Origin: a virus
IMG/VR virus record: IMGVR_UViG_3300030012_002523
Location: 1-21,536 of that record
DNA: 21,536 bases
Reading direction: 5' to 3' (one strand)
Below, in pieces: positions 4-11,853 of the stretch. The notes below the pieces were generated by a model. The model saw only the letters and a program-made list of their open reading frames with translations, made no database searches and was not told the origin of the DNA. How positions within the stretch are numbered: position 1 is the first letter of the stretch; the number at the start of each line of letters is the position of its first letter. The position numbers and the translations under genes are program-made.

Positions 4-10
4 TTTTTTA

Positions 11-37
11 TTATATTATCCGCAAGCGATCGTATTT
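11..37 (-). promoter_or_regulatory. T7-like promoter, copy 1
   Basis: On the minus strand this reads AAATACGA, then nine variable bases, then GATAATATAA. The AATACGA block, the 9-base gap and the GATAATATAA block are identical in the two other copies (402-428 and 577-603), while the 9-base gap sequence differs. Aligned to the T7 class promoter, AATACGA falls at -16 to -10 and the G of GATAATATAA (position 20) falls at +1. The -4 to -1 segment (TGCG) is not AT-rich in this copy. Promoter function is inferred from repetition and position upstream of the start at 3. Confidence 0.6.
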
Positions 38-68
38 ATTTTGTGTTGAGGTGCGGCGAAGCGAAGTG

Positions 69-86
69 CTATACATGCTATACATG
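69..86. repeat. Tandem 9-bp repeat, two copies
   Basis: CTATACATG occurs twice in direct succession (69-77 and 78-86). It runs directly into the left end of the long interrupted palindrome at 86-130. It may be part of the same protein-binding region; no function is visible. Confidence 0.6.
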
Positions 87-135
87 TGACATTAGCTAGT
101 TAAGATATATTAGTAACTAGCTTTTGTCACACTTT
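86..135. repeat. 50-bp direct repeat, copy A, an interrupted palindrome
   Basis: The first 45 bases (86-130) have nested arms: GTGACA, TT, AGCTAGTTA, an 11-base AT-rich centre, TAACTAGCT, TT, TGTCAC. Both the outer 6-base arms and the inner 9-base arms are perfect inverted repeats. The element recurs without gaps at 799-848, with 40 of 50 positions identical including ACTTT to the right of the palindrome. Copy A lies just after the stop of the leftward gene 371-144, so as RNA it would form a hairpin there. It has no T-run for an intrinsic terminator. It may be an RNA-processing hairpin, an operator or a recombination site. Confidence 0.75.
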
Positions 136-143
136 CTGTAGTA

Positions 144-371
144 CTACACGAGCTTTTTATCGCGTAGTATTACTGGTATTGAAGTGCTTGAAGTGTAAGA
201 CTTATACTTTTCGAAGCATGGCATAGTTTCAAGTTTACTTTTCATTATATCATATACTTTATCATGATTGTATGTTACTTGTTTACCATTTTTGAAAGTT
301 ACTTCAATGATTTGATTTTTTCCGATTAGTGATTTGCGTACAACAAATCTTTTTGATTTTAAATTTTGCAT
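144..371 (-). CDS. Small leftward protein of unknown function (75 aa)
   Basis: I do not recognise this protein. It is 75 residues long, basic, and begins MQNLKSKRFVVRKS. A segment 'IIEVTFKNGKQVTYNHDKVYDIM' (about residues 21-43) alternates hydrophobic and polar residues as in a small beta-sheet fold. There are no membrane segments or cysteine clusters. The gene is probably real: it has an ATG, a T7-like promoter copy ending about 30 bases upstream, and an identical promoter arrangement to the other two leftward starts. A strong palindrome follows its TAG stop. Its orientation and separate promoter suggest a non-structural gene expressed at a different time from the virion operon. It could be a host-interaction or regulatory protein. 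Confidence 0.65.
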   Translation of the reverse strand: MQNLKSKRFVVRKSLIGKNQIIEVTFKNGKQVTYNHDKVYDIMKSKLETMPCFEKYKSYTSSTSIPVILRDKKLV

Positions 372-401
372 AGTATTAATTATTAAGTTATTATTATTTT
401 A

Positions 402-428
402 TTATATTATCTTTATTACTTCGTATTT
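402..428 (-). promoter_or_regulatory. T7-like promoter, copy 2
   Basis: On the minus strand this reads AAATACGA, AGTAATAAA, GATAATATAA, the same spacing as copies 1 and 3. The predicted +1 G is at 411. That would give a 40-nt A/T-rich leader before the ATG at 371. The bases just before +1 (TAAA) are AT-rich, as expected for the melting region of a T7-type promoter. Confidence 0.65.
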
Positions 429-435
429 ACGTTGA

Positions 436-543
436 TTATCTCCAAGTTGTTTCATCTGGTGATGAACCCATTTCGATTACAACATAGTCAGATAGTTTAA
501 AGTTAGTAATTTTTAGAACGATAGTAGAAATAAATTTTCGCAT
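436..543 (-). CDS. Very small leftward protein (35 aa)
   Basis: The ATG is at 543-541 and the TAA at 438-436, giving MRKFISTIVLKITNFKLS followed by an acidic tail ending DETTWR. The N-terminal half is basic and hydrophobic; the C-terminal half contains 'SSPDETTWR'. I do not recognise it. It is too short to call on coding statistics, but it sits between two copies of the conserved promoter-like element. Copy 3 ends 33 bases before its ATG, matching the arrangement of the 75-aa gene downstream. It could be a small phage regulatory peptide, or the RNA itself could matter. Confidence 0.45.
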   Translation of the reverse strand: MRKFISTIVLKITNFKLSDYVVIEMGSSPDETTWR

Positions 544-576
544 GATATTAAGTTTTATTTTATTAGTTATTTACAT

Positions 577-603
577 TTATATTATCTATATCGCTTCGTA
601 TTA
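577..603 (-). promoter_or_regulatory. T7-like promoter, copy 3 (closest match)
   Basis: On the minus strand this reads TAATACGA, AGCGA, TATA, then GATAATATAA. The T7 class promoter is TAATACGA, CTCAC, TATA, then G at +1, so this copy agrees at -17 to -10, at -4 to -1 and at +1 with exact spacing. The predicted +1 is at 586, giving a 43-nt leader to the ATG at 543. The conserved initial transcribed block GATAATATAA is not part of the T7 consensus and seems specific to this phage. Confidence 0.7.
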
Positions 604-628
604 AATTTGTGCAGTAGTTAGTATATAT

Positions 629-798: not shown

Positions 799-848
799 GT
801 GACATAAGCCTGTTAAAGTATATAAGTAACACCCTATTGTCACACTTT
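799..848. repeat. 50-bp direct repeat, copy B, a degenerate interrupted palindrome
   Basis: This matches copy A at 86-135 without gaps (40 of 50 identical). The outer arms GTGACA and TGTCAC and the inner GTTA and TAAC are conserved. The middle of the inner arm has two mismatched pairs (AGCCTGTTA against TAACACCCT). No gene ends directly beside it on either strand, which argues against a simple terminator role. A and B bracket the leftward promoters 2 and 3, both small leftward genes and the G-rich island. Confidence 0.75.
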
Positions 849-1177: not shown

Positions 1178-3394
1178 ATGGCAAGAATAAGTACATACAC
1201 AATTGACAGTAGCATCGACGGAACTGAGTTTCTGTTAGGAAGAGAAGCTGACGGTACAACAAAGCAGTTTTCATTGAGTGCGCTACAAACGTACTTAGCA
1301 ACTACAGCAGAAGACACAACTACATTTGGTACTGTTGACATAAACGGTGGTGCTATCGATGGCACGGTAATTGGAGGATCATCTGCAGCAGCAGGATCTT
1401 TCACAACAATATCAGCAAGTAGCAATGCTACTATAACAGGTAACGCGACAATAGGCGGAACATTAGGTGTTACTGGCGTAACTACGCTAGTTGATGTAAA
1501 CGTAACTGGTGAAATAAACTTTGACGGAGCACCTGGAACAGCAGGTCAATACTTACAGTCGCAAGGCGATGGCAATACTCCAATTTGGGACACATTGAGT
1601 TTAAATGATCTGTCCGATGTGCTTGTCGCTGACGGATCTTTGTACATTGGACATGATCCTACATCTACTGACAGTACGGCAGAAAACAACATTGCAGTTG
1701 GAGCTACAGCGCTTGACGCAATAACTACAGGTGATTCTAATATAGCCATAGGGCATAACGCTCTTGGCGCAGCTACAACATGTACAGGTGACGTTGCTAT
1801 TGGTCTTGACGCTGGAGCAGCTATAACTACTAATTCAGGAAAAAATGTTATAGTAGGTTTTCAAGCTGGTAAATCTATTACGTCAGGATCTGGATCTACT
1901 GCTATTGGGTATCTAGCATTAGCATCAAATACAACTGGTAATTACAGCACTGCTATTGGTAAAGACGCTTTAAGAACACTTAACACTAGTGGAAGTGATG
2001 TTCCAGAACACAATACAGCAGTAGGTTTTGAAGCTGGTTTTAATGCAACTTATGGAGATAAAGGTACTTATTTAGGTTCAAATGCTGGTCAGCAAGTTAC
2101 AACAGCTAGTAATAACACTTTTGTTGGAGCACTAGCAGGTACAGCTACTACTACAGGGGCTAATAACACTGCTATAGGCGCAGAAGCATTAGATACAAAT
2201 GTTTCAGGAACTGATTCTGTAGCTATAGGTTATCAAGCATTATTTACTTTTAATGATTCGACCGCTTACAACGTTGCTATTGGTAGTCAAGCTGGAAGGC
2301 TAACTACTACAGGAAACAGTAATGCTTTTGTAGGTTATCAAGCTGGAACGGCAAACACAACAGGATCACAAAATACAGCTGTTGGATCTGGTGCTTTAGG
2401 TTCTAACACCATTGGTGCTAGAAATATAGCCATAGGTGAAAGCGCTCTCTCAACTAACATAGACGGTAGTAAAGCCGTAGCAGTAGGTTATTCAGCTTTA
2501 ACAAATCAAGAGCCTAGTGGCGCAACGGACACTTATAACGTTGCTGTCGGTACTAATTCAGGCTTACAAGTTAGTACAGGAGTACAAAACACTATTATAG
2601 GTGGTTTAGCAGGTGATTCGCTTACAACAGGTTCTGGAAACACAGCCATAGGATATAACGCATCGTTTTCTGCTGTTGGTGCTTCTAACCAAACAGTAAT
2701 TGGTAACGGAGCTGCTGGACAAGGAGATAATATTGTTGTTATAGGTAATTCAAGCGTTACTAGTATAAATCCAGGTAATGCAACTATGGAGCTAGGTACT
2801 ACTGCAAATCCTTTTCAAGATTTAAATTTATCAAGAGAAATACATTCGTGTACTAACAGTTCGGATTTACTTATAACACAATTTGATAGTAATGAAGTAG
2901 CAAGAGTGCATGACGGCGGCACAAACCAAAACACTGGAGCTTTAAACGCTTTAGGACATGGCTTTGGGTTTAAAATGCCTATAATGATACTTAGCGCTGA
3001 CGGTGGAGACAAAACACTTACGCTAGATGCTAAGCAGTCTGGATCAATTATACATTGTGATGCAGATACTAATAACATTGTGTTTAATTTACCTGTAATT
3101 GATTCAGCTGATAAAGCAGGACTTACTTATACTTTTGTAAATACTACAGCTGTAGATAGTGGTCATACAGTTGTTATTAATACTAACGGTACTGATGGTA
3201 ACGATAAGTTTTTAATGTACGGATTTAATGGTGCTACGTCAATATCAGATGTTGCAGGTGATACGCTTACAATACCAAACAGTGCTGCAATAGGTACAGT
3301 AGTAAGAGTAACGTGTTTAGCTTCAGGAGCTTCTAATGCTGCTGAAATATGGCTTGCTGAAGTATTTGGTGCTAGTGCAGTGACAAACACATAA
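1178..3394 (+). CDS. Tail fibre or spike with YadA-head-like repeats (738 aa)
   Basis: This is probably a trimeric receptor-binding fibre on the virion surface. Residues 1-40 ('ISTYTIDSSIDGTEFLLGREADGTTKQFSLSALQTYL') resemble a fibre attachment domain. Residues about 75-165 are a Gly/Thr-rich shaft. Residues about 169-537 are many copies of a short repeat of the form 'NTAIGxxAL...TTGxxN', the left-handed beta-roll repeat known from YadA/Hia-type adhesin heads and phage fibres. Residues 540-738 form a separate C-terminal domain ('GGDKTLTLDAKQSGSIIHCDADTNNIVFNLP'). Unlike the second fibre (8473-11853) it has no S74 chaperone at its end. Both share the module opening 'IGHxxT...NNxAxGxxAxDAITTGDSN', implying common origin. 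Exact position on the virion is not visible. Confidence 0.75.
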   Translation: MARISTYTIDSSIDGTEFLLGREADGTTKQFSLSALQTYLATTAEDTTTFGTVDINGGAIDGTVIGGSSAAAGSFTTISASSNATITGNATIGGTLGVTGVTTLVDVNVTGEINFDGAPGTAGQYLQSQGDGNTPIWDTLSLNDLSDVLVADGSLYIGHDPTSTDSTAENNIAVGATALDAITTGDSNIAIGHNALGAATTCTGDVAIGLDAGAAITTNSGKNVIVGFQAGKSITSGSGSTAIGYLALASNTTGNYSTAIGKDALRTLNTSGSDVPEHNTAVGFEAGFNATYGDKGTYLGSNAGQQVTTASNNTFVGALAGTATTTGANNTAIGAEALDTNVSGTDSVAIGYQALFTFNDSTAYNVAIGSQAGRLTTTGNSNAFVGYQAGTANTTGSQNTAVGSGALGSNTIGARNIAIGESALSTNIDGSKAVAVGYSALTNQEPSGATDTYNVAVGTNSGLQVSTGVQNTIIGGLAGDSLTTGSGNTAIGYNASFSAVGASNQTVIGNGAAGQGDNIVVIGNSSVTSINPGNATMELGTTANPFQDLNLSREIHSCTNSSDLLITQFDSNEVARVHDGGTNQNTGALNALGHGFGFKMPIMILSADGGDKTLTLDAKQSGSIIHCDADTNNIVFNLPVIDSADKAGLTYTFVNTTAVDSGHTVVINTNGTDGNDKFLMYGFNGATSISDVAGDTLTIPNSAAIGTVVRVTCLASGASNAAEIWLAEVFGASAVTNT

Positions 3395-5431: not shown

Positions 5432-6976
5432 ATGCAAAACTCACAAGAAATAGTGAAGCATTTGAATTTTGGCAGCGATGCTCAAGATAAAGTGTTCACT
5501 GGTATTACTAAACTCACAAAAGCCGTTAGCTCTACACTTGGAGCTAGCGGTAAATGTGTTATCCTGGAAGACTTCATGGGAAGACCTATGATTACAAAAG
5601 ATGGTGTTACTGTAGCTAACTCAGTAAACCTTCACGATCCAGTTGAAAACATAGGTGCTACGCTAATAAAAGAAGCAGCTAGAAAAACAGTTAGCGAAGC
5701 AGGTGATGGCACAACAACGGCTACAGTTCTTGCTCAAGCTATATTAAAAGAAGCTAAAGACTATAAAGGATCTTTACGTGATATTAAAAATGATATTAAT
5801 AAAGCTTATGAAAAAACTGTAAACTATTTAAACAAAGTGTCTATACCTGTTGAAGGTAAAATGATAGATCAAGTAGCTGCAATATCTTCAAACAATGATA
5901 AAGAACTTGGAGATATTATAGGTGAAGCATTTAAAAAAGTAGGTAAAAACGGTACGGTTTTTATGGATCCAGACGGTGCAGAAGAAACAAGTGTTGAAGT
6001 TGTATCTGGTTCTCAAATAAACCAAGGTTATGCAAATCCTAATTTTGTCACAGATGTTACTAAGCAAAACGTTACACTAGAAAAACCTCTAGTATTATTA
6101 GTATCATCACCTATAACTACTGTAAGAAAAATACAAACAGTATTAGAATATGCAGTAACAAACAACAGAAGCATACTTATAATTGGTGAACTTGAAAAAC
6201 AACCAATGAGTGCTTTGGTTATGAATAAAATTAAAGGTAATATTAAAGCTAATGTAGTTGCACCTCCAGGATTTAACTTTTGGAAAAAAGACTTTTTAGA
6301 TGATATTGCCGCGGTAACAGGTGCTACTCATATAAATGAAGAGTATGGCGATGACGTAGATTTAATTACACCAGATATGCTTGGCGAGTGTGAAAGAGCT
6401 ATATCTGATTCTAAATCAACTGTACTTAAAGTATCTAGCATACCTGATGTTGCTAAAGAAAGAATTAAGACAATAGAAGATCAACTAAGTTCTAACGCGC
6501 CAAGTTTAAAAACCGAAAAACTACAAGAACGTTTAGGCGTTTTATCAGGAAATGTAGCGGTTATAACTGTGGGCGCAAACTCTGATGTAGAGTTAAAAGA
6601 AAAGAAAGATAGAGTTGATGACGCGATACACGCTACTAAAGCAGCTATAAAAGAAGGTATAGTTTCAGGTGGTGGTGTTGCTCTTTTAAATGCTGCACAA
6701 AAATTAAGTGGTAGTAATGAAGGTGAAAAAATATTTATTAAAGCTATAAAATCACCTTATAAAACTATACTTAATAATGCGGGTTTAGAAAACATATCCG
6801 AACCTAATAAAAAAGGTTGGGGTACAAATGTTGTTACTGGTAAATCAGCAAATATGATTAAGTCTGGAATTATAGATCCAGTGCTAGTAACTAAAACGGC
6901 TTTAAAAAATGCCGTGTCTGTGGCAACTACAATATTATCAACTGACTGTGTAATCAATAATATGAGAGAACAATGA
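5432..6976 (+). CDS. groEL: Chaperonin GroEL, 60-kDa family
   Basis: This is a complete chaperonin subunit that would form an ATP-driven protein-folding ring. Diagnostic stretches are 'ITKDGVTVAN' (D57, matching E. coli D52), 'EAGDGTTTATVLAQAIL' (D92, matching D87) and 'DDAIHATKAAIKEGIVSGGGVALL' (D397, matching D398). All three ATP-site acidic residues are therefore present and it should hydrolyse ATP. At 514 residues it is shorter than the usual ~545 and lacks the Gly-Gly-Met tail, ending 'DCVINNMREQ'. The N-terminus is also divergent. It overlaps the GroES gene by 4 bases (ATGA). Its place inside the virion operon suggests it folds capsid or fibre proteins, as T4 gp31 does with host GroEL. 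Host-derived or phage-lineage origin cannot be decided here. Confidence 0.96.
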   Translation: MQNSQEIVKHLNFGSDAQDKVFTGITKLTKAVSSTLGASGKCVILEDFMGRPMITKDGVTVANSVNLHDPVENIGATLIKEAARKTVSEAGDGTTTATVLAQAILKEAKDYKGSLRDIKNDINKAYEKTVNYLNKVSIPVEGKMIDQVAAISSNNDKELGDIIGEAFKKVGKNGTVFMDPDGAEETSVEVVSGSQINQGYANPNFVTDVTKQNVTLEKPLVLLVSSPITTVRKIQTVLEYAVTNNRSILIIGELEKQPMSALVMNKIKGNIKANVVAPPGFNFWKKDFLDDIAAVTGATHINEEYGDDVDLITPDMLGECERAISDSKSTVLKVSSIPDVAKERIKTIEDQLSSNAPSLKTEKLQERLGVLSGNVAVITVGANSDVELKEKKDRVDDAIHATKAAIKEGIVSGGGVALLNAAQKLSGSNEGEKIFIKAIKSPYKTILNNAGLENISEPNKKGWGTNVVTGKSANMIKSGIIDPVLVTKTALKNAVSVATTILSTDCVINNMREQ

Positions 6977-7233
6977 AAGCAGTTGGATTATTTATAGTTG
7001 TAGAAGAAATAAAAGAAAAACCTACTAAAACAAAAGGTGGTTTACTTTTAACAGATAAAATAAAAGAAGATATTAGATACCGCAAAGGTATTATTAAATC
7101 TGCTGGAAGTTTAGTCGAAGGTGTTAAAGATGGTGATAATATATATTACGACAAACACGCAGGCTTTAATGTAGAAGTAGATGATAAAATATTTTTAGTT
7201 ATAAAACAGCATGACGTTGTTATAGTATTATGA
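6973..7233 (+). CDS. groES: Co-chaperonin GroES-like, single domain (86 aa)
   Basis: This lid protein would cap the GroEL ring. The order of elements matches GroES: an N-terminal strand 'VGLFIVVEEI', a mobile loop with 'KTKGGLLLTD' (residues 19-28) where GGLLL corresponds to the GGIVL hydrophobic tripeptide region of E. coli GroES, then 'RKGIIKSAGSLVEGVKDGDNIYYDKHAGFNVEVDDKIFLVIKQHDVVIVL', matching the GroES barrel 'GEVLAVG...VGDIVIF...VL...DILAIV'. It is slightly short (86 against ~97), with a shortened roof loop. It overlaps groEL and the following gene by 4 bases each, so the three are probably translationally coupled. The gene order groEL-groES is the reverse of the usual bacterial groES-groEL. 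Confidence 0.88.
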   Translation: MKAVGLFIVVEEIKEKPTKTKGGLLLTDKIKEDIRYRKGIIKSAGSLVEGVKDGDNIYYDKHAGFNVEVDDKIFLVIKQHDVVIVL

Positions 7234-8472: not shown

Positions 8473-11400
8473 ATGGCTAAACAATCAATAAATATAGGCT
8501 CTTCCGCTAATGACGGCACCGGAACTCCTTTGAGAGATGCATTTGATATATGCAACGACAATTTTACAGAAATATACGCTGTCAACGGTGGTTCAGCTGC
8601 TTTTCCTAGTTTAGGTTCTGCAGGGCAAATACTACAAGTAAATTCAGGTGGAAGTGCATTAGAGTTTGCCGCTGCTTCAACTGGTATAGCTGGTATAGTA
8701 GAAGGTACAAATTTTACTGGATCTATAATAGTTGGTCATGAAACTACTGGTACTTTAAATGCTGCTCAAAATAATACTGCTCTTGGTATAAACGCAATGG
8801 ACGCTATAACAACTGGTGATAGCAATGTTGTTATAGGTTTTGACGCTGGTACGGCTTTAACTACTGCTAGTAACAATGTACTTATAGGTAAAGATGCTGG
8901 TAAAGGTACTGGTAATCCTGGTACAACTATAGCTATAGGTCAAGGTGTTTTATCGGCTTCAAGTGTAGTAACTGGCTCTGTATTTATTGGAAATTATATG
9001 GCTGCTAACTGTACTTCAGGAGCAGGTTCAACTGTAGCTATTGGTACAAACTGTTTATCGGTTACTGGCTATAGCGGATCAAATAATGTTGTGCTGGGTC
9101 ATCAAGCTGGAAACAACTTAAGTACAGGTGAAGAAAATGTTGTAGTAGGTAGCTTAGCGGGTGATGCTTTAACAACAGGTGGTAAAAACGTAGCTATGGG
9201 CTATCAAGCGCTAGGCGCTGAAGATGCTCACGGGCATAATGTAGCTATAGGTTGGTATGCACTAAGCTCTTTAGATGCAGGTGCTAATGCTCATAATGTA
9301 GCTATAGGTTATAACGCAGCAGACAGTATGACTACTGGTGTAGAAAATACAATAATTGGAGCAGAAGCAGGAAGTGGTTTTACTATTGGTAATTATAACG
9401 TAGCTTTAGGTCGTAACGCTTTAAAAACATCAGTTGATGGTGATTATAATACAGCTATTGGTTACAAAGCGCTAGAAGATTACGAAGACGGAGATGGTAA
9501 TGGCCACAATACAGCTGTAGGAGCAAATTCGCAATTAAATGCTACAACCGGTGAGTTTAATACAAGCTTAGGAAGTGGAAGTATGGGCACAGGTGTTGTT
9601 ACTGGAGATGGTAATGTTTCTATAGGTTACTTAAGTGGTAACGCTTTAACAGGAGGAAGTTCTAATACTTTGCTTGGAAGACAAGCTGGTAACGCTTTAA
9701 CAACAGGTAATCAAAACGTTGCTATTGGTAGATATGCTTTAGAAGACGAAGACGCGCACGGTAGAAATGTAGCTATAGGCCACGAAGCTTTAAGAAATCA
9801 AGATGCTGGAGCTGATGGTTACAACGTTGCTATTGGGTATGAAACAGGTGTAAATATTTCTACAGGAACACTTAATACATTAGTAGGTGGAGGTTTTTGT
9901 GCAGACGCTTTAACTTCAGGCGCTAGAAATGTTGCTATAGGTTACTTAGCTTTAAGCACTGAAGACGCTCATGGTAAAAACGTAGCTGTTGGATATGGAT
10001 CTTTATTTTTCTTAAATGCTGGAGCAGATGGTTATAATACTGCTATAGGATATCAGGCTGGTACATCAGTAACTACCGGTGTAAATAACACTTTTGTTGG
10101 AGCAGACGCTAGTACAATTACAACTGGTAGTAATAATATTGTTATAGGCGCAAACGCTGCTGCTTCTGCAAATAGCGTAAGCAACGAAATAACTTTAGGT
10201 GACTCAAATGTTAACCTACTTAGAATACCAGGTTTAGGATCATCAGATGGTCACGTATTAACTTACAGCTCATCATCAGGTGGTATAGTATTAGCTGCTG
10301 CTTCAGGCGGTGGTGTTAGTGGTAAAGTAGAAGGTACTAATTTTACTGGTTCTATTATAGTAGGTCACAGCACAACAGGTACTTTAAGTAGTGCTGAAAA
10401 TAATACAGCATTAGGTTTAGCTGCTATGGATGCTATAACATCAGGTGATAGTAATATAGCTATTGGTAGTTCAGCACTTACAGCTTTAACAGAAGGTGGT
10501 AAAAACACTGCTATTGGTCATCTTGCAGGTGATGCAATTACTAGTGGTGGAGATAATATAGCTATTGGTCATCAAGCTTTAAGCGCTGAAGACACTGGGT
10601 CTAGAAGTATAGCTATAGGTAATGATGCTTTACTTGTTCAAAATAATGACGCTCAAAATGTTAATATTGCAGTAGGTTATTTTGCAGGAAGAGGAGTTAC
10701 TACTGGTCAACATAACATACTTATAGGTGGTGAAGCTGGAGAAGCTTGTACAACTGCAGCTAGAAACGTTTTTGTCGGTCATCAAGCTGGACACACTACT
10801 AACAACGCGGTTGCAGATTTAGTTGCTATTGGTTACCAAGCTGCTCATAGTGCAGCATCAGGTAGTAATGTTCATATAGGTAGAGAATCTGGTAGAAGTA
10901 ATTCAGGTAATGGTTTTGTTGGTGTAGGTTTAAAATCAGGATATTCAAATACTTCAGGTTCTTGGAACACAATTTTAGGTTATTTTGCTCACTATTCTAA
11001 TACAACAGGTATACAAAATGTTGTAGTTGGTACAGAGGCTGGGTATAATAACACACAAAATGATAATATTTTTATAGGTTACCAATCTGGTTATGGTCAA
11101 GTAGGTACTTCAGGCTCTGATGATAATATTGTTATCGGTACACAAGCTAAATATAAAAATACAACTAATTTCCAAAAAAATGTTTTAGTAGGTTATCAAG
11201 CAGCTTATAATACAGAAGCAACGGCTTACAATTATAATGTTACACTCGGTTATCAAGCTAATTATAACAGTGGGGTAAATTTTGATAGTGTAGCAATAGG
11301 TTATCACGCAGGTTATGCTGATAGTTCAGAGGGTAGTGTTATTATAGGTTATAATGCACAAAACGGAACAATGACAGGTGATTTTAACACTATTATTGGA

Positions 11401-11853
11401 AAAAATGCTAAAGTTGGAGCTTCTTCTGTAACAGGCTCAAATAATACAGTAATAGGTTATAATGCCGCTTCGTCTGCAGTAGACGTAGATAATGAAATAA
11501 CATTAGGAAATAGTAGTATATCAGCTATTAGAGCACAAGTAACATCAATAAGCTCGCTATCAGATAAGCGTGATAAAAAAGATATTAAAGATTCTACATA
11601 TGGATTAGATTTTGTTGACAGTTTAAAACCTGTAACGTTTGAGTGGGATCAAAGAGATGGTAATAGATCAGGTGTAAAAGACGTAGGATTTATTGCTCAG
11701 GATTTACAAGAAGTTGACGATGAATTTACAAGATTAGTATATGAAAGTAATCCTGATAGATTAGAAGCAACATACGGTAGATTAATACCAATATTAGTAA
11801 AAGCAGTTCAAGATCTTTCTGCTAAAGTAAAAGAGTTAGAAAACAAACAATAA
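8473..11853 (+). CDS. Large tail fibre with YadA-like repeats and S74 intramolecular chaperone (1126 aa)
   Basis: This is probably the main trimeric receptor-binding fibre. The N-terminus 'QSINIGSSANDGTGTPLRDAFDICNDNFTEIYA' is a known phage fibre anchor pattern. Residues ~95-570 and ~630-1010 are two long arrays of YadA-head-like 'NVAIGxxAL...TTGxxN' repeats. Each array is introduced by the same module (V76 onward and V619 onward, both 'VEGTNFTGSIIVGHxTTGTL'), so the protein contains an internal duplication of about 543 residues. The C-terminus is a Peptidase_S74 / endosialidase-type chaperone starting at S1030 ('SDKRDKKDIKD'), with 'VGFIAQDLQEV' and a final coiled coil 'LVKAVQDLSAKVKELENK'. 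Such domains trimerise the fibre and then cut themselves off before the motif's Ser, leaving ~1029 residues on the virion (family knowledge, not shown here). Confidence 0.9.
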   Translation: MAKQSINIGSSANDGTGTPLRDAFDICNDNFTEIYAVNGGSAAFPSLGSAGQILQVNSGGSALEFAAASTGIAGIVEGTNFTGSIIVGHETTGTLNAAQNNTALGINAMDAITTGDSNVVIGFDAGTALTTASNNVLIGKDAGKGTGNPGTTIAIGQGVLSASSVVTGSVFIGNYMAANCTSGAGSTVAIGTNCLSVTGYSGSNNVVLGHQAGNNLSTGEENVVVGSLAGDALTTGGKNVAMGYQALGAEDAHGHNVAIGWYALSSLDAGANAHNVAIGYNAADSMTTGVENTIIGAEAGSGFTIGNYNVALGRNALKTSVDGDYNTAIGYKALEDYEDGDGNGHNTAVGANSQLNATTGEFNTSLGSGSMGTGVVTGDGNVSIGYLSGNALTGGSSNTLLGRQAGNALTTGNQNVAIGRYALEDEDAHGRNVAIGHEALRNQDAGADGYNVAIGYETGVNISTGTLNTLVGGGFCADALTSGARNVAIGYLALSTEDAHGKNVAVGYGSLFFLNAGADGYNTAIGYQAGTSVTTGVNNTFVGADASTITTGSNNIVIGANAAASANSVSNEITLGDSNVNLLRIPGLGSSDGHVLTYSSSSGGIVLAAASGGGVSGKVEGTNFTGSIIVGHSTTGTLSSAENNTALGLAAMDAITSGDSNIAIGSSALTALTEGGKNTAIGHLAGDAITSGGDNIAIGHQALSAEDTGSRSIAIGNDALLVQNNDAQNVNIAVGYFAGRGVTTGQHNILIGGEAGEACTTAARNVFVGHQAGHTTNNAVADLVAIGYQAAHSAASGSNVHIGRESGRSNSGNGFVGVGLKSGYSNTSGSWNTILGYFAHYSNTTGIQNVVVGTEAGYNNTQNDNIFIGYQSGYGQVGTSGSDDNIVIGTQAKYKNTTNFQKNVLVGYQAAYNTEATAYNYNVTLGYQANYNSGVNFDSVAIGYHAGYADSSEGSVIIGYNAQNGTMTGDFNTIIGKNAKVGASSVTGSNNTVIGYNAASSAVDVDNEITLGNSSISAIRAQVTSISSLSDKRDKKDIKDSTYGLDFVDSLKPVTFEWDQRDGNRSGVKDVGFIAQDLQEVDDEFTRLVYESNPDRLEATYGRLIPILVKAVQDLSAKVKELENKQ

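Follow-up and report, generated by a model that had tools for sequence, protein, structure and literature searches.

A direct-repeat promoter element of uncultured, mostly aquatic phages that is probably read by a phage-encoded sigma factor

What reads the element that stands three times ahead of the leftward genes at one end of this viral contig? The window, which is the whole stretch of DNA analyzed here (21,536 nucleotides), is a 21.5-kb IMG/VR virus fragment that encodes a terminase, a portal protein, and proteins resembling holins and GroES, together with a reading frame similar to GroEL. The relatives of its terminase in our phage collection are phages of Flavobacterium, Cellulophaga, Tenacibaculum, and Maribacter, and the nearest of them is MW202828 (65%). 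The initial annotation described the element as a T7-class promoter and expected a single-subunit RNA polymerase gene elsewhere in the genome. Our analysis indicates that the element is a promoter common to hundreds of uncultured, mostly aquatic phages. From its sequence and its neighbors, these are probably early or middle promoters of a tailed phage at which the host core RNA polymerase uses a phage sigma as its specificity factor.

Table 1. Features of the window; +1 coordinates of the three promoter copies were transferred from the family logo
Feature	Coordinates	Strand	Details
Promoter copy A	6..45	-	CACAA 45-41, TACGA 34-30, -10 hexamer GATAAT 20-15, inferred +1 8
Gene behind copy A	ATG 3-1	-	Continues past contig end
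Promoter copy B	397..436	-	ATCAA 436-432, TACGA 425-421, -10 hexamer 411-406, inferred +1 399; precedes 75-aa gene
75-aa gene, family 38, behind copy B	144..371	-	In 16/16 motif-bearing genomes compared; absent from MW202828 and elemoA
Promoter copy C	572..611	-	CACAA 611-607, TACGA 600-596, -10 hexamer 586-581, inferred +1 574
35-aa ORF behind copy C	436..543, start 543	-	Not conserved among genomes compared; coding status uncertain
45-bp imperfect palindrome	86-130, 799-843		Two copies
Large virion proteins	1178-3394, 8473-11853		Two proteins made of NTAIGYQAL-type repeats
GroEL	5432-6976		
Short protein	6973-7233		After GroEL

The pattern AATACGA-N9-GATAATATAA was recovered free of mismatches in all three copies (11-36, 402-427, and 577-602, minus strand), as the initial annotation had reported. 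Searching the window for AATACGA-N9-GATAAT with at most one mismatch gave three matches, against 0.03 expected by chance. A weight matrix built from other genomes only picked out exactly these three sites, with scores of 39.7, 25.2, and 39.5 bits for copies A, B, and C; the best score on 30 simulated windows was 7.7 bits. The third copy had further been read as TAATACGA-N5-TATA-G, and these letters are correct, but the TATA is a chance feature whose positions vary across the family. Two features had gone unnoticed: a further half-site, which lies 11 bp upstream and reads CACAA in copies A and C and ATCAA in copy B, and conservation from -37 to +3 relative to the start that we infer below. An Rfam search of the first 1.2 kb of the window gave no match. 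The 75-aa protein that adjoins the first promoters has a conserved core (xRFVVRKSLIGKN), and its only Pfam match was weak, below the cut-off, and not meaningful.

In 2.9 million viral contigs scanned, at least 119 stretches with the motif were found. When at most two mismatches were allowed, 43 of the 45 long IMG/VR records searched contained it, with about 290 matches compared to 4 for a reversed control pattern in the same records; it is important to note that these records were largely picked for having the motif, so that the count is biased, while the set of loci chosen by their sigma gene (see below) is free of this bias. Within each record, the copies lay on one strand, with a single exception, and this was almost always the early strand. 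Thus, it was recurrence that we found and not the absence of further copies that the initial annotation had named as contrary evidence, and the idea of a recurrent promoter ahead of leftward genes was borne out in related genomes.

We described the full element from an alignment of 524 sites, numbered such that AATACGA occupies positions 1 to 7. Sites were collected by the presence of AATACGA and GATAAT, which accounts for part of the conservation at these positions, whereas the first alignment involved no selection for the upstream half-site or positions 23 to 31. The conserved stretch covers ∼38 bp. It contains the half-sites TACAA (positions -8 to -4) and TACGA (positions 3 to 7), 11 bp or one helical turn apart from C to C, followed by GATAATAT at positions 17 to 24, a T at position 28, and an A or G at position 29. 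The hexamer GATAAT is one base off TATAAT, the textbook -10. Relative to the inferred start, the direct repeat TACAA-N6-TACGA is centered at -29.5, with its half-sites at about -35 and -24. A purine stood 7 nt after the -10 hexamer (position 29) in 285 of 288 sites of a later per-genome set. Further, the base before GATAAT (-13) was strongly genome specific (85% within-genome agreement versus 46% in shuffles).

A purine 7 nt past the last T of the -10, preceded by a T and often forming the A of an ATG, is the mark of a multisubunit RNA polymerase start and of leaderless messages. Among 355 strong sites, an ATG lay exactly at position 29 in 59, compared to 2 at position 30 and 5 at position 27, and this peak remained when conserved genes alone were counted (11 of 89). 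The purine at a fixed distance and the ATG peak at position 29 together point to a start 12 nt downstream of the +1 that had been proposed. Transcripts in the window would therefore start at 8, 399, and 574 and not, as the initial annotation had it, at 20, 411, and 586, and many messages of the family would be leaderless. The distance from the element to the ATG varies from 29 to about 80 nt. If the element were not a promoter, it might be a conserved translation-start or operator sequence ahead of the leftward genes, and indeed start codons follow it closely and the leaders are A rich. However, the fixed 11-bp repeat, the -10 hexamer, the purine at a fixed distance, and the variable distance to the ATG fit a promoter and not a ribosome signal, which makes this alternative very improbable.

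The same alignment bears on the T7-class reading, in which the polymerase would be a single-subunit enzyme of the phage. The element shares with T7-class promoters AATACGA and a G at equal distance, and the third copy also has TATA. In a T7 promoter, the specificity bases are at -9 to -5 and TATA is at -4 to -1, whereas the equivalent logo positions (8 to 16, T7 -9 to -1) hold 0.01 to 0.38 bits over background and are almost unconserved. The conserved region is also too long, extending from 25 bp before to 14 bp after the +1 of the initial annotation, and the predicted starts cluster 12 nt downstream of that +1. The predicted polymerase gene was not found in the 65 motif-bearing or related records searched, a finding that the initial annotation had itself said would speak against it: PF00940 matched neither the 45 records that were motif rich or related nor 20 further relatives and re-searched records (3 records were in both sets), although it detected T7 itself with an E value of 9.9e-110. 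This search covers other records, and the window itself is a fragment. Finally, a distant lineage (L331, with a sigma 51% identical) has nine promoters of the form GCAGA-N6-ACGA...TATAAT, which keep the 11-bp direct repeat overlapping the -35 and the 12-nt distance between half-site and -10 but have lost AATACGA. Thus, the constant feature is a sigma-type architecture and not the T7-like letters, and a T7-class promoter is scarcely credible here. An N4-like or crAss-like giant polymerase was also considered and rejected; the 2.6- to 3.9k-aa virion protein was aligned for conserved blocks, and the MW202828 copy was without a Pfam polymerase domain.

Protein clustering of 16 motif genomes yielded a 251-aa family that was present in 15 of the 16 and absent from MW202828 and elemoA. 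This family matched PHROG 351, "RNA polymerase sigma factor" (E = 8e-18), and PF04542 (Sigma70_r2; 1.8e-6, above the cut-off), with PF04545 below the cut-off. Its profile matched SigA (2.9e-9) and, over residues 29 to 239, FliA in the PDB, and the top Foldseek matches of the protein model, which is of moderate confidence (pLDDT, 70), were to sigma70/sigmaA only. These matches identify the 251-aa protein as a predicted sigma70-family factor with regions 2 and 4 and a sigma fold. A tblastn search of the phage collection with this sigma found no match; no cultured phage there has one.

Motif and sigma gene occurred together in both directions of comparison. In 49 records examined, 42 bore the motif and 33 of these had the sigma gene; the nine others were shorter contigs with motif copies at the end where sigma should follow, and by position they lack it because the contigs end just past the motif. 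The window likewise ends before the sigma gene. Sigma was absent from all six cultured or complete relatives that carry no motif array (Panino, phi38:1, phi18:3, Gundel_1, elemoA, and MW202828). As the reverse test, we fetched 80 loci by the sigma gene alone and counted the 58 with enough upstream sequence. The motif was found in 53 of these. Of its sites, 332 preceded the sigma gene on its own strand, a single one was on the opposite strand, and 14 followed the gene. For two apparent gaps among the sigma loci (L370 and L388), the promoter was present with a TATAA-like upstream half-site. In residue-level and distance tests, covariation of the -13 base and half-sites with sigma, a 206-aa protein, ERF, exonuclease, and helicase was dominated by shared ancestry, and none stood out.

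Some contigs carried duplicated modules. Two sigma genes that were nearly identical in regions 2 to 3 and different in region 4 were observed (G039, a 129.5-kb record; L326 and L327). Each lay close to promoters of its own, with C versus A as the -13 base; these are probably two phages joined in assembly. Two records (G040 and G004) carried replication modules twice in diverged form, with the primase-helicase duplicated in both, ribonucleotide reductase also in G040, and sigma also in G004. These contigs were probably joined from related phages, or the duplications may be real.

We propose that host core RNA polymerase, joined by the phage sigma (about 250 aa), would start transcription at GATAAT and that the repeat at -35/-24 would strengthen or permit initiation, being read by sigma region 4 and/or a partner. 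The proposal is built on the observed architecture, recurrence, strand and place of the element, on the sigma gene, and on their co-occurrence; the start site, the reading of the motif by sigma, the partner, and the timing are our interpretation of these. The sigma gene sits at the downstream end of the motif-bearing gene cluster. With the arrays placed ahead of it on the same strand, the sigma gene would be transcribed from these promoters, and sigma would increase its own supply in a positive feedback, as proposed for phage 7-11 (PMC4331800). Phages phiEco32 and 7-11 resemble this family in that a lytic phage encodes a sigma and has promoters upstream of the sigma gene that are readable from sequence (PMC4331800). 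They differ in that their motif is short (TAATGTATA or TGATGT) and their early genes have host-type promoters (PMC4331800), whereas the family described here has a 38-bp direct-repeat element in as many as about a dozen copies, and host-type promoters were not found.

A 206-aa protein with a C-terminal helix-turn-helix is encoded just upstream of sigma, and its gene overlaps the sigma gene in several genomes; it had no significant sequence or fold match (confident model; pLDDT, 88). Since -24 is not normally contacted by a sigma factor, the second half-site would call for another reader or unusual contacts, and the 206-aa protein may be a candidate for this reader. We also observed a 45-bp imperfect palindrome, GTGACAwTAGsCTrTTA...TAAyAGsCTAwTGTCAC, which occurs twice in the window (Table 1) and recurs at the early/late divergence, within the early module, and, in about ten genomes, over the start codon of the 206-aa gene. 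It is possibly an operator or an RNA hairpin controlling sigma.

Two further points speak against reading by the phage sigma. First, the sigma cannot precede the first round of transcription, and the host-type promoter for that round was not found; this round may depend on a factor carried in the virion, on weak recognition by the host, or on a host promoter that escaped detection. Second, the sigma could serve the late genes instead, which carry a different AT-rich element. The late genes share TTAATTwTATTATATTATG directly before the ATG, often just past a hairpin (structural families 66 and 69; e.g., G040 at 43923 and 47057). TATTATA was present in 43 of 213 late upstream regions versus 14.5 expected, and the late element is a possible second promoter class.

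In an alternative explanation, a host sigma, its main one or an alternative one, would act with a phage or virion protein that binds the direct repeat as SARP, PhoB, or MotA do, and the phage sigma would be for late genes. The genes concerned are nearest the divergence point and so probably first expressed, the -10 is one base from TATAAT, and a separate late element exists. Moreover, SARP (AfsR) promoters have two repeats 11 bp apart, centered at -29.5 and 8 to 9 bp upstream of the -10 (PMC10936776), and the geometry of the repeat here equals that of SARP boxes. AfsR differs in being a Streptomyces activator that works with a host sigma and in the sequence of its boxes, and a SARP homologue was not found here. 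The alternative is also weakened by the position of the arrays, which lie upstream of sigma on the same strand at nearly all sigma loci.

The identity of the host bears on the same question. Genes of the motif family showed no excess of Shine-Dalgarno sequences and had A at -3 in about 60%, like those of Flavobacterium phage elemo, in agreement with the earlier remark that no Shine-Dalgarno is used. These translation signals and the relatives suggest, without proving, a Bacteroidota host. The main Bacteroidota sigma (sigma-ABfr) reads TTTG/TAnnTTTG, with TAnnTTTG as the -7 element (PMC6847099). TAnnTTTG was not enriched in the motif family, either in early regions (14 of 249 versus 14.0 expected) or in late regions (6 of 213 versus 12.6), and full host-type promoters were scattered and chance-like. 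Host-type promoters were thus rejected as the early promoters of the motif family. This family and sigma-ABfr promoters have in common the presumed host group of the relatives and genes that do not use a Shine-Dalgarno, but TAnnTTTG is absent from the promoters described here, while it precedes late genes in MW202828 and elemo (TATCTTTG, 4 of 13 and 6 of 15 late genes, respectively). If the host is of the Bacteroidota, its main sigma would therefore look for a sequence that is not enriched here (PMC6847099), and a host sigma with an activator is possible but on balance unlikely. We also tried to derive the host from sigma matches in bacterial assemblies and set this aside, as the five MAG contigs bore five organism names and are probably misbinned phage contigs.

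With the phage sigma as the probable specificity factor, the promoter can be recognized from sequence alone in the genomes of hundreds of uncultured phages, the 5' ends of transcripts (many of them leaderless) are predicted exactly, and the likely specificity factor can be named. More tentatively, and with somewhat less than even confidence, we suggest that a large, uncultured lineage swaps the unusual sigma of its probably Bacteroidota host for a sigma70-like factor of its own and a repeat-binding partner, with a -35/-24 plus -10 code in which the lineage-specific -13 base and upstream half-site serve as a private key. We know of no such two-part code, a -35/-24 repeat plus a -10, in described phages. 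With its likely sigma, the promoter described here would let the phage bypass the unusual promoter of the Bacteroidota and might yield an orthogonal promoter-sigma pair for use in bacteria in which Escherichia coli parts fail.
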